From: a bacterium
GTDB taxonomy: Bacteria; UBP15; UBA6099; DSWB01
DNA length: 13,845 bases
Assembly (NCBI GenBank): GCA_020061125.1
Contig: JAGUYV010000090.1
Coordinates: 1-13,845 of the forward strand
Direction: 5' to 3'
The position numbers and the translations under genes are program-made. Below, in pieces: positions 1-13,131 of this stretch (positions within the stretch are counted from its first letter, which is position 1; each line of letters opens with the position of its first letter). The notes under the pieces are model-generated. The model did no database searches. It saw only the letters and a list, made by a program, of their open reading frames with translations, and had not been told where the DNA came from.

Positions 1-2315
1 ATCAGAAACTGGGTTCCTTCGGGGCCGGTGCGCGCCACCTTGATGTCTCCGCCGAGCTGGTTCACGATGCCGTAACAGATGGACAGCCCCAGGCCCGTGC
101 CTTTGCCCACGGGCTTGCTGGTCACGAACGGGTCGAAGATGGTGCCGAGCAGCTTGTGCGGGATGCCGCTGCCCGTGTCCGCCACGGTGATGCGCAGGCA
201 GCCGTCCGCGGCTTCGGTGCCGATGGTGATGTGGCCGCCCGCGGGCAGCACATCTATGGCGTTGTCTATGAGGTTGACCAGCACCTGCTGCAACTGCACC
301 GGATTCACGGCCAGGGCCGGCACTGCCGGGGACAGTTTGGTGTGGAACCGGATATTGCTGAACCGCACCCGCGAGTACATGAAGTCGAGCACATCGTTGA
401 TTACATTGTTGACATTGCAGGCCTCGGCCACGCTTTCATTCTGCGAGGCGAAGCCGAGCAGGCGCATGGTGATGCTTTTGCAGCGCATGGTGTGCTGGCG
501 GATTTTGGACAGGGACTCGGAGATTTCCTGGAAGTTCGGCGAAGCCTTGATGCGATCGTCGCTGTCCAGGAGTTCGCCGGCCCAGCCCGCGGCCTCGTTG
601 ATCACGGCCAGGGGATTGTTGATTTCGTGGGCCAGGCCCGCGCCGAGCTTGCCGATGGCCGCCAGGCGGTCCTGGTGAATGAGCTGGAGCTGGAGCACCT
701 TGCGCGTGGTCACATCGCGGCAGATGTCCACGGTGCCGATCACATAGCCCTCGTTGTCGTACAGATGCGAGATGGTGATGGCAACATCCACATGCGCGCC
801 GTCCTTGCGCACGAACCGGGTTTCGTGATTGGTGACGCCGCCCTCGGTGTACAGGCGTTTGAGCAGGCGCGGATATTCTTTGGGGTCCGCGTACAGCAGA
901 TCCGCGGGGCGGCCCGTGACCTCGCTGCGGTTGTAGCCCAGAATGTCCTCGGCGCCCCGGTTGAAGGTGGCGATGTTGCCGCTCAAGTCAGTAGTGATGA
1001 TGATGTCGCGCGAGTTTTCGAGCACATTCTGCAGGTATTCCTTGGTGGCCTGCAACTCTTTCTGCTTGCGTTCGAGTTCGCGCTGCATGGACTTGACATG
1101 GGTGATGTCCTCGGAGATGCAGCACACGCCCGTGATCTCGCCCTTTTTGTTGATGATAGGGAACCGGATGGCGTGGTAGTAATAGTCCTTGCCGGCCCTG
1201 GCGATTTTCTCTTCGGAGACGAATTGTTTCTTGCCCTTGCGCAGGACTTCGCTGTCGTTTTTGCGGAAGATGTCCGCGGTTTCACGGGGCAGGATTTCGA
1301 GGTCCGTGTGCGTGATGATTTCCTTGAAGGACAGGCCCAGGGCCTCGCAGCCCTTGTCGTTGATCTGGATGTATTGCCCGTTCATGTTTTTGATGGAAAT
1401 GGGGAACGGAGCGGAGAGGAAGAAGGTTTCGAGCTGGACCAGGGATTCGGCGAGTTCGTCTTCGAGGTGGATGCGGTAAGTGATGTCGCGCGTGGCCTCG
1501 ATGACGCCGATGAGGTTGCCTTCATGGTCGGACAGGGGCGTCATCTTGGTGGAGGCGTACACATCCTTGCCGGTTTCGTCAATGTGGTGGTACACGGCGT
1601 TCTGCGGGCGGCGGGTGCGGAGCACTTCGCGCAGCAGGCAGTAGTCTTCGGTGATCTGGCATTCGCCGCGCAGCTTGTTGTCAATTTCATAGCAGAATCG
1701 GCCCACGACTTTATCGTATTCGAGGCCGTTGTTCTGCAGGTATGGCTGGTTCACATCGAGCACGACCATGTCCGGGCTGATGACCAGGATTTCGTCGGGC
1801 AGGGAGTCGAAGATTTGTTTAATTTTATTTCGCTCGGCGTCAATGCGCTGCTGGGCCTCGGTTTCGGCGCGGATGCGTTCCTTGGCCGTGGCGTACATGT
1901 CCCAGAGCAAGCGTGCGGAGATGTGGTCTATGAGTTCCACGCCATCGGGTTTTTGCTGCTGGAGCTGCGCGCGCACCTTGCTGCTGCCCGTAAGTTCCAG
2001 AAGCATGTCCATGGGCTGATCCGCGAGCATCTCGCGCCAGTCCGAGTAGGTTGCGATGCCCATGCTGCGCGCGAGCTTGAGGCCCGGGGCCTCGGAGTTG
2101 ATGTCGCTGACCGCGAGGATGTCCATCCAGAAATCGGCGAGCACGCGGCTCTGGAGCATTTCGAGAATGGCGATGCATCCCGGACCTGCGCCCACGATGC
2201 CGGCCTTGAAAACGCGGGCCTCGTCCTGTGGTCCGTAGGCGCCGTAATGCGAGGGCTGCGCGCCGCCGTTGCCGCCGGGCGTTTTGCCGCGTGAGGTTCT
2301 CGTGTCGTCCGCCAT
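1..2315 (-). CDS. Hybrid-sensing histidine kinase: N-terminal Rossmann-like domain, three PAS domains, HisKA and HATPase_c (3' end cut by window edge)
   Basis: Probably a cytoplasmic sensor kinase; no membrane segment is visible. 771 codons can be read from the ATG at 2315 and the frame stays open to the left edge. Residues 37-140 look like a Rossmann-type nucleotide-binding domain: a beta strand, a GAGPGC glycine turn (43-48), then LAVSDIN (67-73) as a second strand ending in an acidic residue, as in NAD-dependent dehydrogenases. PAS domains lie at about 165-280, 291-405 and 425-538, each ending in a D-I/V-T type PAC motif. The kinase core has the H-box LAHEINNPL with phospho-acceptor H563, N-box NLIDNAIDV (N685), G1 DTGSGIP (713-719), FDPF (727-730) and G2 GTGLGL (739-744). 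AAGGAG lies 10 nt before the ATG. The preceding protease gene ends 23 bp upstream, so the two are probably co-transcribed. The ligand and the partner regulator are unknown; a C-terminal receiver domain beyond the edge cannot be excluded. Confidence 0.93.
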   Translation of the reverse strand, partial: MADDTRTSRGKTPGGNGGAQPSHYGAYGPQDEARVFKAGIVGAGPGCIAILEMLQSRVLADFWMDILAVSDINSEAPGLKLARSMGIATYSDWREMLADQPMDMLLELTGSSKVRAQLQQQKPDGVELIDHISARLLWDMYATAKERIRAETEAQQRIDAERNKIKQIFDSLPDEILVISPDMVVLDVNQPYLQNNGLEYDKVVGRFCYEIDNKLRGECQITEDYCLLREVLRTRRPQNAVYHHIDETGKDVYASTKMTPLSDHEGNLIGVIEATRDITYRIHLEDELAESLVQLETFFLSAPFPISIKNMNGQYIQINDKGCEALGLSFKEIITHTDLEILPRETADIFRKNDSEVLRKGKKQFVSEEKIARAGKDYYYHAIRFPIINKKGEITGVCCISEDITHVKSMQRELERKQKELQATKEYLQNVLENSRDIIITTDLSGNIATFNRGAEDILGYNRSEVTGRPADLLYADPKEYPRLLKRLYTEGGVTNHETRFVRKDGAHVDVAITISHLYDNEGYVIGTVDICRDVTTRKVLQLQLIHQDRLAAIGKLGAGLAHEINNPLAVINEAAGWAGELLDSDDRIKASPNFQEISESLSKIRQHTMRCKSITMRLLGFASQNESVAEACNVNNVINDVLDFMYSRVRFSNIRFHTKLSPAVPALAVNPVQLQQVLVNLIDNAIDVLPAGGHITIGTEAADGCLRITVADTGSGIPHKLLGTIFDPFVTSKPVGKGTGLGLSICYGIVNQLGGDIKVARTGPEGTQFL

Positions 2316-2338: not shown

Positions 2339-3505
2339 TTACTTAATATAGTCCGCCAGGGTAATGGCGATGTTTTTTTGTTCGCCACCCCGGTCCACGG
2401 TAAGCGAGAAGACCGCGCCCGGCGGCTGGCGCACCAGGGTGCGCATGCCCGATATGCCGGTTTCGGACGCGGGCCTGCCGTCCACGGTGAGGATCTTGTC
2501 TCCCATCTCCAGGCCCGCGGCATGCGCCGGGCTGCCCTGTGCCACGGACACCACCACATAATCGCCGTCCAGGCGCAGGGCCGTAAGCCCGGCGCGCTCT
2601 TCCTGCCAGGGATCTTTGTAATGCGCGTTGGGCGTGAGATAAATCATGCGGCGGTTGTAGTCCAGAACCACCGTGAACCGGCGCAGGATTTCCGTGCCCA
2701 CAAGGCCGTCAATCATGGAATTGAACGGATTCGCGGCGTGGGCGTAAACGCGGAACCCCTTGAATGTGGCGGATGCGAACTCCAGGGTGTCCGCGCGCAG
2801 AAGGATGCTGTCCACCGAGCCGCCCAGACCGTACACGGGCATGCGGTACACGGCGTGTTTTTTGTGCAGTTCGCTGGCGGCCAGAAATTCCGGATAGATG
2901 TCCACCATGCTGTTGGCGCCGGTGTCAATCATGAAATTGCCGGGCGCGCCGTCGAGCCTGCATTTGACCAGGGGCACATTCATGGCGAGGTTGATGGGCA
3001 GCGACTGCGCGCCCGACGGGGGCGTATACTGCGCCGGCTCGTGCAGGCGCATCACGCTCTTTTCAAAGTCCAGCTCCACGACCCAGCGGCGGAACAGGGG
3101 GTAGCCCAGGATCATGTCCATATCCTGTTCGATGGGTGCGGATTCGCGCCGCAGGGGGCCGCCGAGCAGGGGCATGTCCGGCTGCATCAGGGGCGCGCTG
3201 TCAAGCGCGATCATGTCCGCGGCGAACGACGGCATTTCGAGCGCGCCGCCCGTGGCGGCCACGGGCAGCTTGCCTGTGGGTTGAAGCCCGAGGCTCTTCG
3301 CCAGGTCCAGATCCACAAGGTTGTGTGTGGACCCGGTGTCAATCATGGCGCGGTATGCGCCTTGCCCGGACAGGGTGACATTGTCGAGAAAGATATTGTT
3401 GTGCTTGAGAGTGAACGGCGCCTCGTGCGCGGCCGCTCCGAGCGCCGTACTCCGCGCAGCAAGGACCGCCGCCAGAACCAGCGCCGCCAGTGTCATGCGT
3501 TTCAT
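2339..3505 (-). CDS. Exported two-lobed retropepsin-like aspartyl protease with C-terminal PDZ domain
   Basis: 388 residues, probably a periplasmic aspartic protease. Residues 1 to about 23 form a signal peptide (KR followed by an Ala/Leu-rich core, cleavage near ALG or AAA). Two retropepsin-like lobes follow, each with the catalytic signature: IDTGS at 55-59 (D56) and IDTGA at 193-197 (D194). Each lobe also has a later hydrophobic-GY/VG segment (MILGYPLF 131-138; IDGLVGTEIL 265-274) matching the second conserved psi-loop of the family. Residues about 305-386 form a PDZ domain (GSPAHAAGLEMGDKILTVDG). Because both active-site aspartates are on one chain, the protein could work as a monomer, unlike single-lobe retropepsins that must dimerise. 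The ATG start gives an intact signal peptide; a G-rich stretch before it is only a weak ribosome binding site. It is first in a likely operon with the sensor kinase. The substrate is unknown. Confidence 0.88.
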   Translation of the reverse strand: MKRMTLAALVLAAVLAARSTALGAAAHEAPFTLKHNNIFLDNVTLSGQGAYRAMIDTGSTHNLVDLDLAKSLGLQPTGKLPVAATGGALEMPSFAADMIALDSAPLMQPDMPLLGGPLRRESAPIEQDMDMILGYPLFRRWVVELDFEKSVMRLHEPAQYTPPSGAQSLPINLAMNVPLVKCRLDGAPGNFMIDTGANSMVDIYPEFLAASELHKKHAVYRMPVYGLGGSVDSILLRADTLEFASATFKGFRVYAHAANPFNSMIDGLVGTEILRRFTVVLDYNRRMIYLTPNAHYKDPWQEERAGLTALRLDGDYVVVSVAQGSPAHAAGLEMGDKILTVDGRPASETGISGMRTLVRQPPGAVFSLTVDRGGEQKNIAITLADYIK

Positions 3506-4107: not shown

Positions 4108-4617
4108 GTGAAATACGAGATTTACCACGAGATCGGGGCGAACATAGACGACCTGGTCAAGCTGACCCAGATGCGCGAGGAACGCGACCCCAAGGTGTAC
4201 CCGAATGTCACCAGCACCAAGCTGGTCAAGGAAGAGCGCAAGGGCAGCAAATACATCACCGTGCTGGAAACCTGCGCCAACGGCGACATCCCCCCGAAAC
4301 TGCGAAAGCTTATCAGGCCCGAAATGTTGAGCTGGCACGAATACGGCGAATTCGATTTCGACAAAAATGAATACCGCTACAAGGTCAAGACTTTTTACTT
4401 GAGCAATGTGTTCAGCATGCACGGCCGAGTGCAATGGACAAAGATTGACGAAAACCGAACGGGCCGCAGGATGAATGTCGAAATTGACATCAAGGTCCCG
4501 ATTCTCGGCAGAATTGCGGAGAAAAAGATTTCCGAGACCCAGATCGAGAACCTGAACCTCGACCCCGGGCGCATGCCCCAGGAAGTCGAGGAAGCCAGGA
4601 AACTGGGCAAGCTGTAA
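4108..4617 (+). CDS. DUF2505 / SRPBCC-like protein of unknown function
   Basis: 169 residues, no signal peptide or membrane segment, so probably cytoplasmic. The pattern of alternating strands (KYEIYHEIGA at the start, KYITVLETCA at 48-57, FDFDKNEYRYKVKTFY at 82-97, RRMNVEIDIKVPILG at 120-134) followed by a long C-terminal helix resembles the START/SRPBCC ligand-binding fold, closest in my judgement to DUF2505. That fold binds lipids or other hydrophobic ligands in many families, but no ligand can be read here. The start is GTG at 4108: AAGGAG (4093-4098) lies 9 nt upstream, while the ATG at 4101 is only 2 nt from it and opens another frame. It has its own strong promoter. No clear terminator follows. 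Confidence 0.82.
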   Translation: MKYEIYHEIGANIDDLVKLTQMREERDPKVYPNVTSTKLVKEERKGSKYITVLETCANGDIPPKLRKLIRPEMLSWHEYGEFDFDKNEYRYKVKTFYLSNVFSMHGRVQWTKIDENRTGRRMNVEIDIKVPILGRIAEKKISETQIENLNLDPGRMPQEVEEARKLGKL

Positions 4618-10917: not shown

Positions 10918-13131
10918 TTGGAAATCAGGGAATATTTAAGCATCATCTGGAAACGCAAACTGCTCATTGTCATTTCCATGTTCCTGCTCGGGTTCCTGGG
11001 AATCGTGATCAACTATGTGATCATGAAAGCCACCTATCAGGCTACGGCCAAGATTCTTGTGGAGCCCAAGGCCAAGCTCGTGGTGCTGACCGGGGACCGC
11101 AATGCGAGCAACATGCCCCCGTCTCTGGACATTGAGACTTATGTGAAGATGCTCAAAAGCCATCGCGTGGGCGAGGCCGCGGCCCAAGAACTGCACAAAG
11201 ACGATAAAAAAATGCCCGACAGGGAGGCCCTCCAGAAGCAGGGCATCAACATGGCCAATGCGGTCGTGGTGGAAGCCGAAGAGGACACGGGCATCATCAA
11301 GGTCAGCGTGCAGAGCAAAAATCCCGAAGAATGCACGGACATCGCAAACGCCTATGTCAGAGCATTTGTGGGAGTCAGCAAACAGATGACGGAAAGCTCA
11401 CTGGACGAGCTGGAATCCTATGTGGAGAAACAGCTCGCGCAGGCCAACCTCAAGCTCAAGGAACGGTCGCAGAACATTAAGGAATTCCAGGACGACATTC
11501 TCGCCGAGCACGACACCACGAACCCGGACCTTCAGGAAACCGAACTTGACCAGCTTATCCGTCAGCTCGAAAACGAGCGCATGTACGCGAACATAGAACA
11601 GAAGGCGCTGGAGGTTCGCCTCCGCGGTTTCGCCCAACTGCTGAACCAGTACGACGATGTGCTCACCATGGGCACCATGGACCGGCCTGGCTGGGACAGC
11701 ATGTCCTTTACAAACAACAGTGAAATTGATGATCGCCTGCGCGAACTCGAACTCGAGCGCATTTCATTGCAGGAGAGATTTGTCGAGGGGCACCCCAAGC
11801 TGGCGGAACTGGACGGCAAGATCGAACTTCTCGAAAACCAGAAGCGGCGCGTGGTGAGCAGCTATGTGCAGGGCCGCCAGATAAACAATCAGCGCTATGA
11901 GCATGTGCGCGACAGCGTGGACGAGCTTGAGGTGGAGCTTGCGCTGGCCACGGCGAAAATTGAGCGTATCGAGCAGAGCCTCGAAGAAGCCCGCGGCAGA
12001 ATGGTTAATGTGCCGGAAATCAAAAAGCAGAAGATGGATCTCGAGCGGGATCTGGCCGTGGCCGAGTCCATGAAAACCATGCTCGAAGAGCAGCTTATCC
12101 AGCTCCAGCTCCAGCGCGTGGAGCGGCCCACCAAGGTGCAGGTGCTCGATCCCGCCATCAAGCCATCGGACCCCATATCGCCCCAGCGTGAGCGCAATGT
12201 GGCCATCGCCATCATCATCGGCCTGCTCCTGGGCGTTGGCCTTGCTTTCCTCCTCGAGGAAATGGAAGAAACCGTGCGCACCAGCGACGATGTCAAGAAT
12301 TACCTCAACCTGCCGGTGCTTGGCTCCATACCGTATTCCGCGGAAACCATCAACAAGCTCATCACAGATGTTCCTTTGAAATCTCCCATCGCAGAGGCTT
12401 ACCGGCGCTTGAGTTTCTTCACGCAGCTTTTCTGCCTGGATCCGCCCATCAAGAGCCTGCTCGTCACAAGCTGCAAATCCGACGAAGGCAAATCCACGAC
12501 CCTGTCCAACATGGCCATCAGCATGGCCCAGGAAGGCACCAAGGTTCTGATTATTGACACGGACCTTCGCAGGCCCATGCTGCATCGCATGTTTGGCATA
12601 GACAACTCCCTGGGCTTAAGTTCGATCCTCACTGGCGAACTCGAGGCCGAAATCGCGGTCAGCGACATGTCCGTGAGCGGCCGCCTGCCCAAAGAGTCGT
12701 TCATGGAAGTGGTGGTGGACCGCCTCATCCAGCCCACGAACATAAAGGGCTTGAGCGTAATCCCGTCCGGCCCGCTGCCCGCCAACTCCATCGAGCTGCT
12801 GCGCAGCGAGCGCATGCTGTCCTTCCTGCGCACCGTGGAGAAGAAAGCCGACATCGTAATTTTCGACAGTCCCCCGTCCATCCATGTGATTGACGCCGTG
12901 GTCATGGCGCAGATTCTGGACGGCGTGCTCATGGTCATCAACAGCGGCCGCATAGACCGCGAGGAAGCACTCCAGGTCAAGTACATGATCGAGAGCACCA
13001 AAACGCCCATCATCGGCGTGGCGCTCAACAATATCGAGGCATCAAGCCCGGATTATTATTATTACTATTATTACGGCGGCTACGGCTACGGCAGCCGCCA
13101 GCGCCGCAAGCGCGTGAAACTCAAACGCTAA
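10918..13131 (+). CDS. Polysaccharide co-polymerase / BY-kinase (Wzz domain fused to Wzc-type tyrosine kinase)
   Basis: 737 residues. Membrane helix 1 is about 14-33. A periplasmic region with long coiled coils (about 160-235 and 270-400) follows, then a proline-containing stretch (404-422) and helix 2 (428-447), as in Wzz/Wzc proteins that set exopolysaccharide chain length. The cytoplasmic kinase domain has Walker A SCKSDEGKSTT (518-528, K525), Walker A' VLIIDTDLRRP (543-553, D547 and D549) and Walker B VIFDSPPS (647-654, D650). EAYRRL (493-498) keeps only part of the EX2RX2R oligomerisation motif. The tail has seven tyrosines in a row (713-719) plus Y722 and Y724, then a basic end; this is the autophosphorylation cluster. 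The start is TTG at 10918, with GGAGG 6 nt upstream and the Wzz N-terminus EIREYLSIIWKRK directly after it. No wzx, wzy or glycosyltransferase gene is in the window. Confidence 0.93.
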   Translation: MEIREYLSIIWKRKLLIVISMFLLGFLGIVINYVIMKATYQATAKILVEPKAKLVVLTGDRNASNMPPSLDIETYVKMLKSHRVGEAAAQELHKDDKKMPDREALQKQGINMANAVVVEAEEDTGIIKVSVQSKNPEECTDIANAYVRAFVGVSKQMTESSLDELESYVEKQLAQANLKLKERSQNIKEFQDDILAEHDTTNPDLQETELDQLIRQLENERMYANIEQKALEVRLRGFAQLLNQYDDVLTMGTMDRPGWDSMSFTNNSEIDDRLRELELERISLQERFVEGHPKLAELDGKIELLENQKRRVVSSYVQGRQINNQRYEHVRDSVDELEVELALATAKIERIEQSLEEARGRMVNVPEIKKQKMDLERDLAVAESMKTMLEEQLIQLQLQRVERPTKVQVLDPAIKPSDPISPQRERNVAIAIIIGLLLGVGLAFLLEEMEETVRTSDDVKNYLNLPVLGSIPYSAETINKLITDVPLKSPIAEAYRRLSFFTQLFCLDPPIKSLLVTSCKSDEGKSTTLSNMAISMAQEGTKVLIIDTDLRRPMLHRMFGIDNSLGLSSILTGELEAEIAVSDMSVSGRLPKESFMEVVVDRLIQPTNIKGLSVIPSGPLPANSIELLRSERMLSFLRTVEKKADIVIFDSPPSIHVIDAVVMAQILDGVLMVINSGRIDREEALQVKYMIESTKTPIIGVALNNIEASSPDYYYYYYYGGYGYGSRQRRKRVKLKR
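13054..13074 (+). repeat. TAT/TAC trinucleotide repeat coding for seven tyrosines
   Basis: Seven consecutive tyrosine codons, five TAT and two TAC, in the order TAT x3, TAC, TAT x2, TAC. The AT-rich run stands out in a GC-rich gene, where TAC would be expected more often. It encodes the start of the BY-kinase tyrosine cluster. Confidence 0.85.

Follow-up and report, generated by a model that had tools for sequence, protein, structure and literature searches.

Acylating acetaldehyde dehydrogenase of the DmpF type (1nvm, 4lrs, 4jn6) provides the closest known fold to the domain described here, with an E-value of 2.3e-7 in a family hidden Markov model (HMM) search and a structural Z-score of about 12. 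The enzyme and the domain have in common a turn of the GxGxxG kind, the third glycine position of which is Cys or Gly in the family, and a D...GL..A..LG motif past strand 2. The domain, however, lacks the catalytic second domain and its active-site cysteine, which are replaced by an ARLLW exit helix, and it is fused to kinases and regulators. In terms of function, the closest idea is the Rex repressor, in which a Rossmann domain serves as an NADH/NAD+ sensor. Rex, which binds DNA through a winged-helix domain, acts alone, whereas the present family is coupled to kinase, sigma-54 activator and cyclase outputs; Rex matches the family HMM weakly (E 0.013), and the domain is nearer in sequence to acetaldehyde dehydrogenase. 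Neither system is the same thing, because the catalytic half of the one and the DNA-binding domain of the other are absent. The NAD domains of Gfo/Idh/MocA, DapB_N and homoserine dehydrogenase (PF01408, PF01113, PF03447) match 13-18 of 49 family members, but their C-terminal substrate domain and an EKP or TANK-like motif are missing from the domain. After strand 5, the kinase encoded in the window (the whole stretch of DNA analysed, 13,845 nucleotides) has VELIDHISARLLWD rather than the Gfo/Idh/MocA EKP motif.

Many two-component systems respond to redox, yet none is known to us for which a dehydrogenase-type domain has been shown to bind NAD(H) directly. Cytoplasmic PAS histidine kinases possess the same PAS-PAS-PAS-HisKA-HATPase core as the window kinase, which adds the N-terminal Rossmann input. 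KdpD-type kinases likewise have a nucleotide-binding cytoplasmic input, but there, as outlined in PMC8214093, it is a USP domain that binds c-di-AMP, while the ligand considered here is putative. Neither Pfam nor NCBIfam contains a model for the domain as such, the NCBIfam matches on minimal members covering their outputs only, and no description of it was found in the open-licence papers searched. The fold itself is known; what is new is its recognition as a sensor domain of wide distribution, and neither database has a name for it.

We interpret the domain, with a probability of roughly 0.55, as a cytoplasmic Rossmann dinucleotide sensor, most likely of NAD(H), that is coupled through a rigid helix and derives from dehydrogenase kin by loss of the catalytic half. 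The sensor (input) role is well supported; that the Rossmann domain binds a ligand, which ligand this is and the direction of its effect are what we infer. Were the family as a whole to read NAD(H), it would form a redox input module of general use in bacterial signalling. It would also give a functional label to many sulfate-reducer and Nitrospirota sensors that lack a curated model for their N-terminal part. The minimal members are soluble and 340-450 residues long, some of them sit beside malate dehydrogenase and NuoF, and they make direct nucleotide sensing by kinases and sigma-54 activators readily testable.

Domain architecture of the window kinase

The window comprises a whole contig, and the kinase frame (2315..3, minus strand) stays open to the contig end. 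The sensor histidine kinase gene (3..2315) is cut at its 3' end and encodes the N-terminal 771 residues of the protein; all features of the kinase given below lie on the minus strand. Residues 32-142 (1890..2222) comprise the Rossmann sensor domain and the first turns of the next helix, as supported by the AlphaFold model (pLDDT 87) and PDB matches, and the 30 residues preceding the domain have no Pfam match. Three motifs pointed out in a preliminary description of this DNA are present: the glycine turn GAGPGC (residues 42-47; 2175..2192), the acidic residue D71 at the end of strand 2 within SDINSEAPG (residues 70-78, with SDIN at 70-73; 2082..2108), and strand 4 with the loop behind it, LLELTGSSKV (residues 105-114; 1974..2003). 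Strand 5 and the start of the exit helix follow as VELIDHISARLLWD (residues 126-139; 1899..1940), which includes the conserved W138.

In the AlphaFold model, a helical linker (residues 139-168; 1812..1901) extends the last Rossmann helix into PAS 1 (residues 169-281; 1473..1811), which was identified by a PAS_4 match. PAS 2 occupies approximately residues 291-410 (1086..1445), its limits being estimated from sequence with three PAS stretches counted, and PAS 3 was assigned by Pfam to residues from about 426 to 536 (708..1040). The HisKA dimerisation and phospho-acceptor domain, with H563 in HEINNP, lies at 441..650, and HATPase_c, with its N and G boxes, lies at 3..302 and is cut by the contig end. 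PAS_4, PAS_9 and HATPase_c exceed the Pfam cut-off, and HisKA falls just under it (24.6 versus 26.9 bits). With PAS domains, a HisKA domain bearing the phospho-acceptor histidine and HATPase_c, the window protein is a PAS sensor histidine kinase.

As had been proposed, no dehydrogenase catalytic domain follows the Rossmann part in Pfam searches, PAS starting instead at residue 169, and no catalytic half was found behind the Rossmann domain in any family protein scanned. These absences bear on the idea, raised by the resemblance to dehydrogenases, that the domain retains enzyme activity or shares one with a separate catalytic partner. Such an activity is highly improbable, given that the window kinase and every scanned member lack the catalytic half and that the domain is covalently built into signalling proteins.

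Fold of the N-terminal domain

The Rossmann fold became clear once relatives were added, the single sequence giving weak matches only. Searched alone, the window domain produced sub-threshold matches in Pfam (GFO_IDH_MocA at 0.02 and Glu_dehyd_C at 5e-4) and in NCBIfam (acetaldehyde dehydrogenase at 5e-4), and a phmmer search of the PDB with the window sequence alone likewise returned sub-threshold matches that did not settle the fold. An AlphaFold model of residues 32-165, built from a four-sequence alignment (the window copy, L005, L006 and L007), has a mean pLDDT of 87 and the order b-a-b-a-b-a-b-a-b-a, with a final helix spanning residues 131-164. In a Foldseek comparison with the PDB, acylating acetaldehyde dehydrogenases supplied each of the top seven matches, always with their NAD domain; VIA-align ranked the same enzyme family first (4lrs_B, Z 11.9; 1nvm_D, Z 11.8), and an HMM of 49 family members independently detected 1nvm_B in the PDB at the E-value of 2.3e-7 given above. 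Among these 49 members, Pfam matches were obtained to GFO_IDH_MocA (18), DapB_N (15), NAD_binding_3 (13) and CoA_binding (4), and the Pfam gathering scores were exceeded by a few relatives (L081, L088, L092), most members, including the window's, lying below them.

The Rossmann signal far exceeds chance, and the fold and family of the domain are established. The model, Foldseek, VIA-align and the family HMM agree with the earlier suggestion of a Rossmann-like domain heading a PAS kinase, and the structure prediction and fold search it had proposed as a check returned Rossmann topology with acetaldehyde dehydrogenase NAD domains as the best matches. Its interval of 1970-2210 covers residues 36-115 and is too short: the confirmed Rossmann core extends over kinase residues from about 36 to 130 and is followed by one long helix, which carries the conserved W138, and then by PAS-PAS-PAS-HisKA-HATPase. 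The N-terminal stretch of some 110 residues probably descended from, or shares an ancestor with, the NAD half of acetaldehyde dehydrogenase-type enzymes.

Conserved residues and the predicted ligand cleft

Conservation was assessed across 92 family domains. Three positions, G42, G44 and A82, never vary; position 109 holds either Thr or Ser throughout (T109 in the window), and G78 and W138 are conserved in 97% and 96%, respectively. At the end of strand 2, position 71 is Asp in 70% (D71 in the window), Glu in 9%, and Cys or Ser in 22%. Residue 47, the third glycine position, is Cys in 59%, including the window copy, and Gly in 40%. The window copy carries the family signature, namely D..N..APG past strand 2, T(G) past strand 4 and the ARLLW exit helix. 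It is 44% identical to L005 and 25-37% identical to the other alignment members, and it scores E 4e-57 against the family profile, the query alignment of which includes the window copy itself.

In the model, G42, G44, D71 and T109 directly follow strands 1, 2 and 4, and W138 belongs to the exit helix. The dinucleotide site of such folds is the region right behind strands 1, 2 and 4, and conservation in the family peaks there, matching the position of NAD. A dinucleotide, with NAD(H) as the first choice, would most likely bind in the cleft at the ends of strands 1, 2, 4 and 5, where G42-x-G44, D71, T109 and D130-H131 would line it. Two observations count against an NAD(H) sensor: Cys takes the place of the third glycine in 59% of the family, the window protein included, and the strand-2 acid is replaced by Cys or Ser in 22%. 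Moreover, the missing catalytic half leaves no ready-made nicotinamide pocket, so that the dimer or a further domain would have to contribute to any discrimination between NADH and NAD+.

The same two substitutions, the frequent Cys at the third glycine and the variable strand-2 acid, would suit a ligand-free dimerisation or protein-docking scaffold, a role for which Rossmann folds have been recruited elsewhere. We consider this unlikely, since G42, G44 and T/S109 rank among the top conserved positions and lie at strand ends, which would be odd for a pure scaffold; in addition, the Rossmann domain is the sole N-terminal domain of minimal one-component sigma-54 activators, which require signal input. 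We tentatively propose, at somewhat under even odds, that a large unnamed Rossmann family lets kinases, sigma-54 activators and diguanylate cyclases of several phyla read the NAD(H) pool directly. In such a family, the residue that closes strand 2 (Asp as against Cys-Thr-Asn or Ser-Arg-Asn) would tune each subfamily to a different dinucleotide.

Distribution and architectures of the family

The nearest relative of the window kinase, L005, is about 45% identical and has the same architecture. A two-sequence genome-contig scan yielded three genuine relatives and one further candidate, L008, a Spirochaetales ATP-grasp-like protein that was discarded on sequence as unrelated. This type of scan identified L006, a Desulfobacteraceae kinase with the layout Rossmann-PAS-GAF-PAS-HK, and L007, a Nitrospirae kinase of 343 aa in which the Rossmann domain is joined directly to HisKA-HATPase. 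L006 bears out the expectation in the preliminary description that similar fusions occur in deltaproteobacterial kinases, although the range proved wider and takes in other phyla and several outputs.

At E 1e-5, profile searches gave matches in 182 of the 291 genomes from the L006 class and in 132 of the 245 from the L007 phylum, where matches between E 1e-5 and 1e-20 may include true dehydrogenases; at E 1e-20, the counts are about 122/291 and 101/245. With matches in that intermediate range excluded, the domain is thus present in about 40% of the genomes sampled from these two groups. Strong matches occur in 5 of 149 Spirochaetota genomes (E 8e-43 to 1e-32), and a tblastn search of plasmids gave no match to the domain. 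Copy number ranges from one in the window's genome up to eight in some Desulfobacteria. Sampling of the window's own GTDB phylum is poor, with only seven genomes that all belong to a single order; the fusion occurs in one of them besides the window's own.

Kinase architectures include Rossmann-HisKA, Rossmann-HisKA_3 and Rossmann-GAF-PAS-HK-receiver-receiver-GGDEF; outside the kinases, Rossmann-sigma54-HTH_8, Rossmann-PAS-sigma54 and Rossmann-GAF-GGDEF were found. The Rossmann domain is the sole recognised non-output domain ahead of HisKA-HATPase (L007, L097), HisKA_3 (L089, L092) and sigma54-HTH_8 (L081, L088). A rough family tree shows two well supported main clades, and output type switches on it at least eight times, a count that is only a rough guide because few columns underlie the tree and many of its forks are unresolved. 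Many architectures combined with output switching are the behaviour of a modular input domain. The architectures, the helix spacing described below and the gene context of the family are direct observations.

Several unusual arrangements were also encountered. At L074:5912-8920 (plus strand), a 1003-residue kinase that is flanked on either side by response regulators has four tandem Rossmann copies followed by PAS and HisKA. Three consecutive Rossmann-domain genes lie near succinyl-CoA synthetase at L075:3392-7684 (minus strand), two of them (224 and 287 aa) without a recognised output and the third a PAS-sigma54 activator. The Spirochaetota protein at L137:520-2109 (minus strand), as read from its sequence, has an HTH-like N-terminus, a Rossmann domain, a probable GAF domain and GGDEF.

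Proposed coupling to the output domains

In directly fused HisKA kinases, the phospho-accepting His comes exactly 31 residues after the conserved Trp. This spacing was checked in two overlapping sets (13/13 and 5/5) and holds for all 16 distinct proteins. One of them, L007, is strongly diverged from the others. Its AlphaFold model shows a single helix (residues 99-153) across the Trp-His stretch, though its confidence is low near residues 122-138. The exit helix of the window kinase runs into PAS 1, not directly into HisKA.

Ligand binding is expected to shift the last helix (ARLLW...), which would be continuous with the signalling coiled coil. In the window kinase, the shift would reach PAS 1 and the DHp helix, and the output would be phosphorylation of a response regulator; in relatives, it may act straight on HisKA or on the AAA+ ring. 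Movement of the exit helix with ligand state would, in turn, move the DHp bundle.

Gene neighbourhoods and the candidate ligand

Malate dehydrogenase lies directly upstream, on the same strand, of the Rossmann-sigma54 gene at 6/6 Nitrospirota loci, which are related rather than independent, with gaps of 42-297 bases. At four of the five readable loci, the next recognisable downstream gene encodes a subunit of the NuoF type, which oxidises NADH in complex I-like enzymes. At L088:3199-7295 (plus strand), and likewise at L113, L114 and L115, malate dehydrogenase is followed by the Rossmann-sigma54 regulator and then by the NuoF-type subunit, a conserved order. The earlier suggestion that the kinase may sense NAD(H) or another nucleotide fits these neighbours of relatives and the conserved cleft residues. 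NAD(H) is favoured as the putative ligand because of these neighbours together with the NAD-domain ancestry, the metabolic context coming from relatives that belong to another phylum and are about 32% identical to the window domain.

In Desulfobacteria, a CitMHS_2 putative citrate transporter, which also counts towards the redox link, is a conserved neighbour at 10 loci and universal stress proteins at 9, and succinyl-CoA synthetase adjoins family members at one locus. The citrate-type transporter and succinyl-CoA synthetase would also fit a cleft used for a different ligand that contains adenine or belongs to central carbon metabolism, for instance coenzyme A, acyl-CoA or a C4 acid. For a CoA-type ligand, it also speaks that the nearest solved relatives are CoA-dependent dehydrogenases and that Pfam CoA_binding is matched by 4/49 members. 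Such a ligand nonetheless seems rather unlikely, as NAD(P)-binding Pfam families match more members (18, 15 and 13 of 49) than CoA_binding does and the NuoF neighbour indicates NADH.

Neighbours of the HisKA_3 kinases include glyA (11 loci), nrdR (7) and a LuxR-type response regulator (14), and the glyA and nrdR context of this branch is not plainly redox. In the window, no response regulator partner of the kinase was found, and the kinase neighbours, an aspartyl protease-PDZ gene and then unrelated genes, are uninformative on redox. The first of these, at 2339-3505 (minus strand), lies directly upstream of the kinase on the same strand and encodes a retroviral-type aspartyl protease fused to PDZ. 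A conserved-looking protein of 169 aa with a sub-threshold DUF2505 match is encoded at 4108-4617 (plus strand). The gene at 10918-13131 (plus strand) specifies a Wzz/GNVR protein of the exopolysaccharide chain-length type, which is joined to a domain resembling bacterial tyrosine kinases and ends in a Tyr-rich tail.
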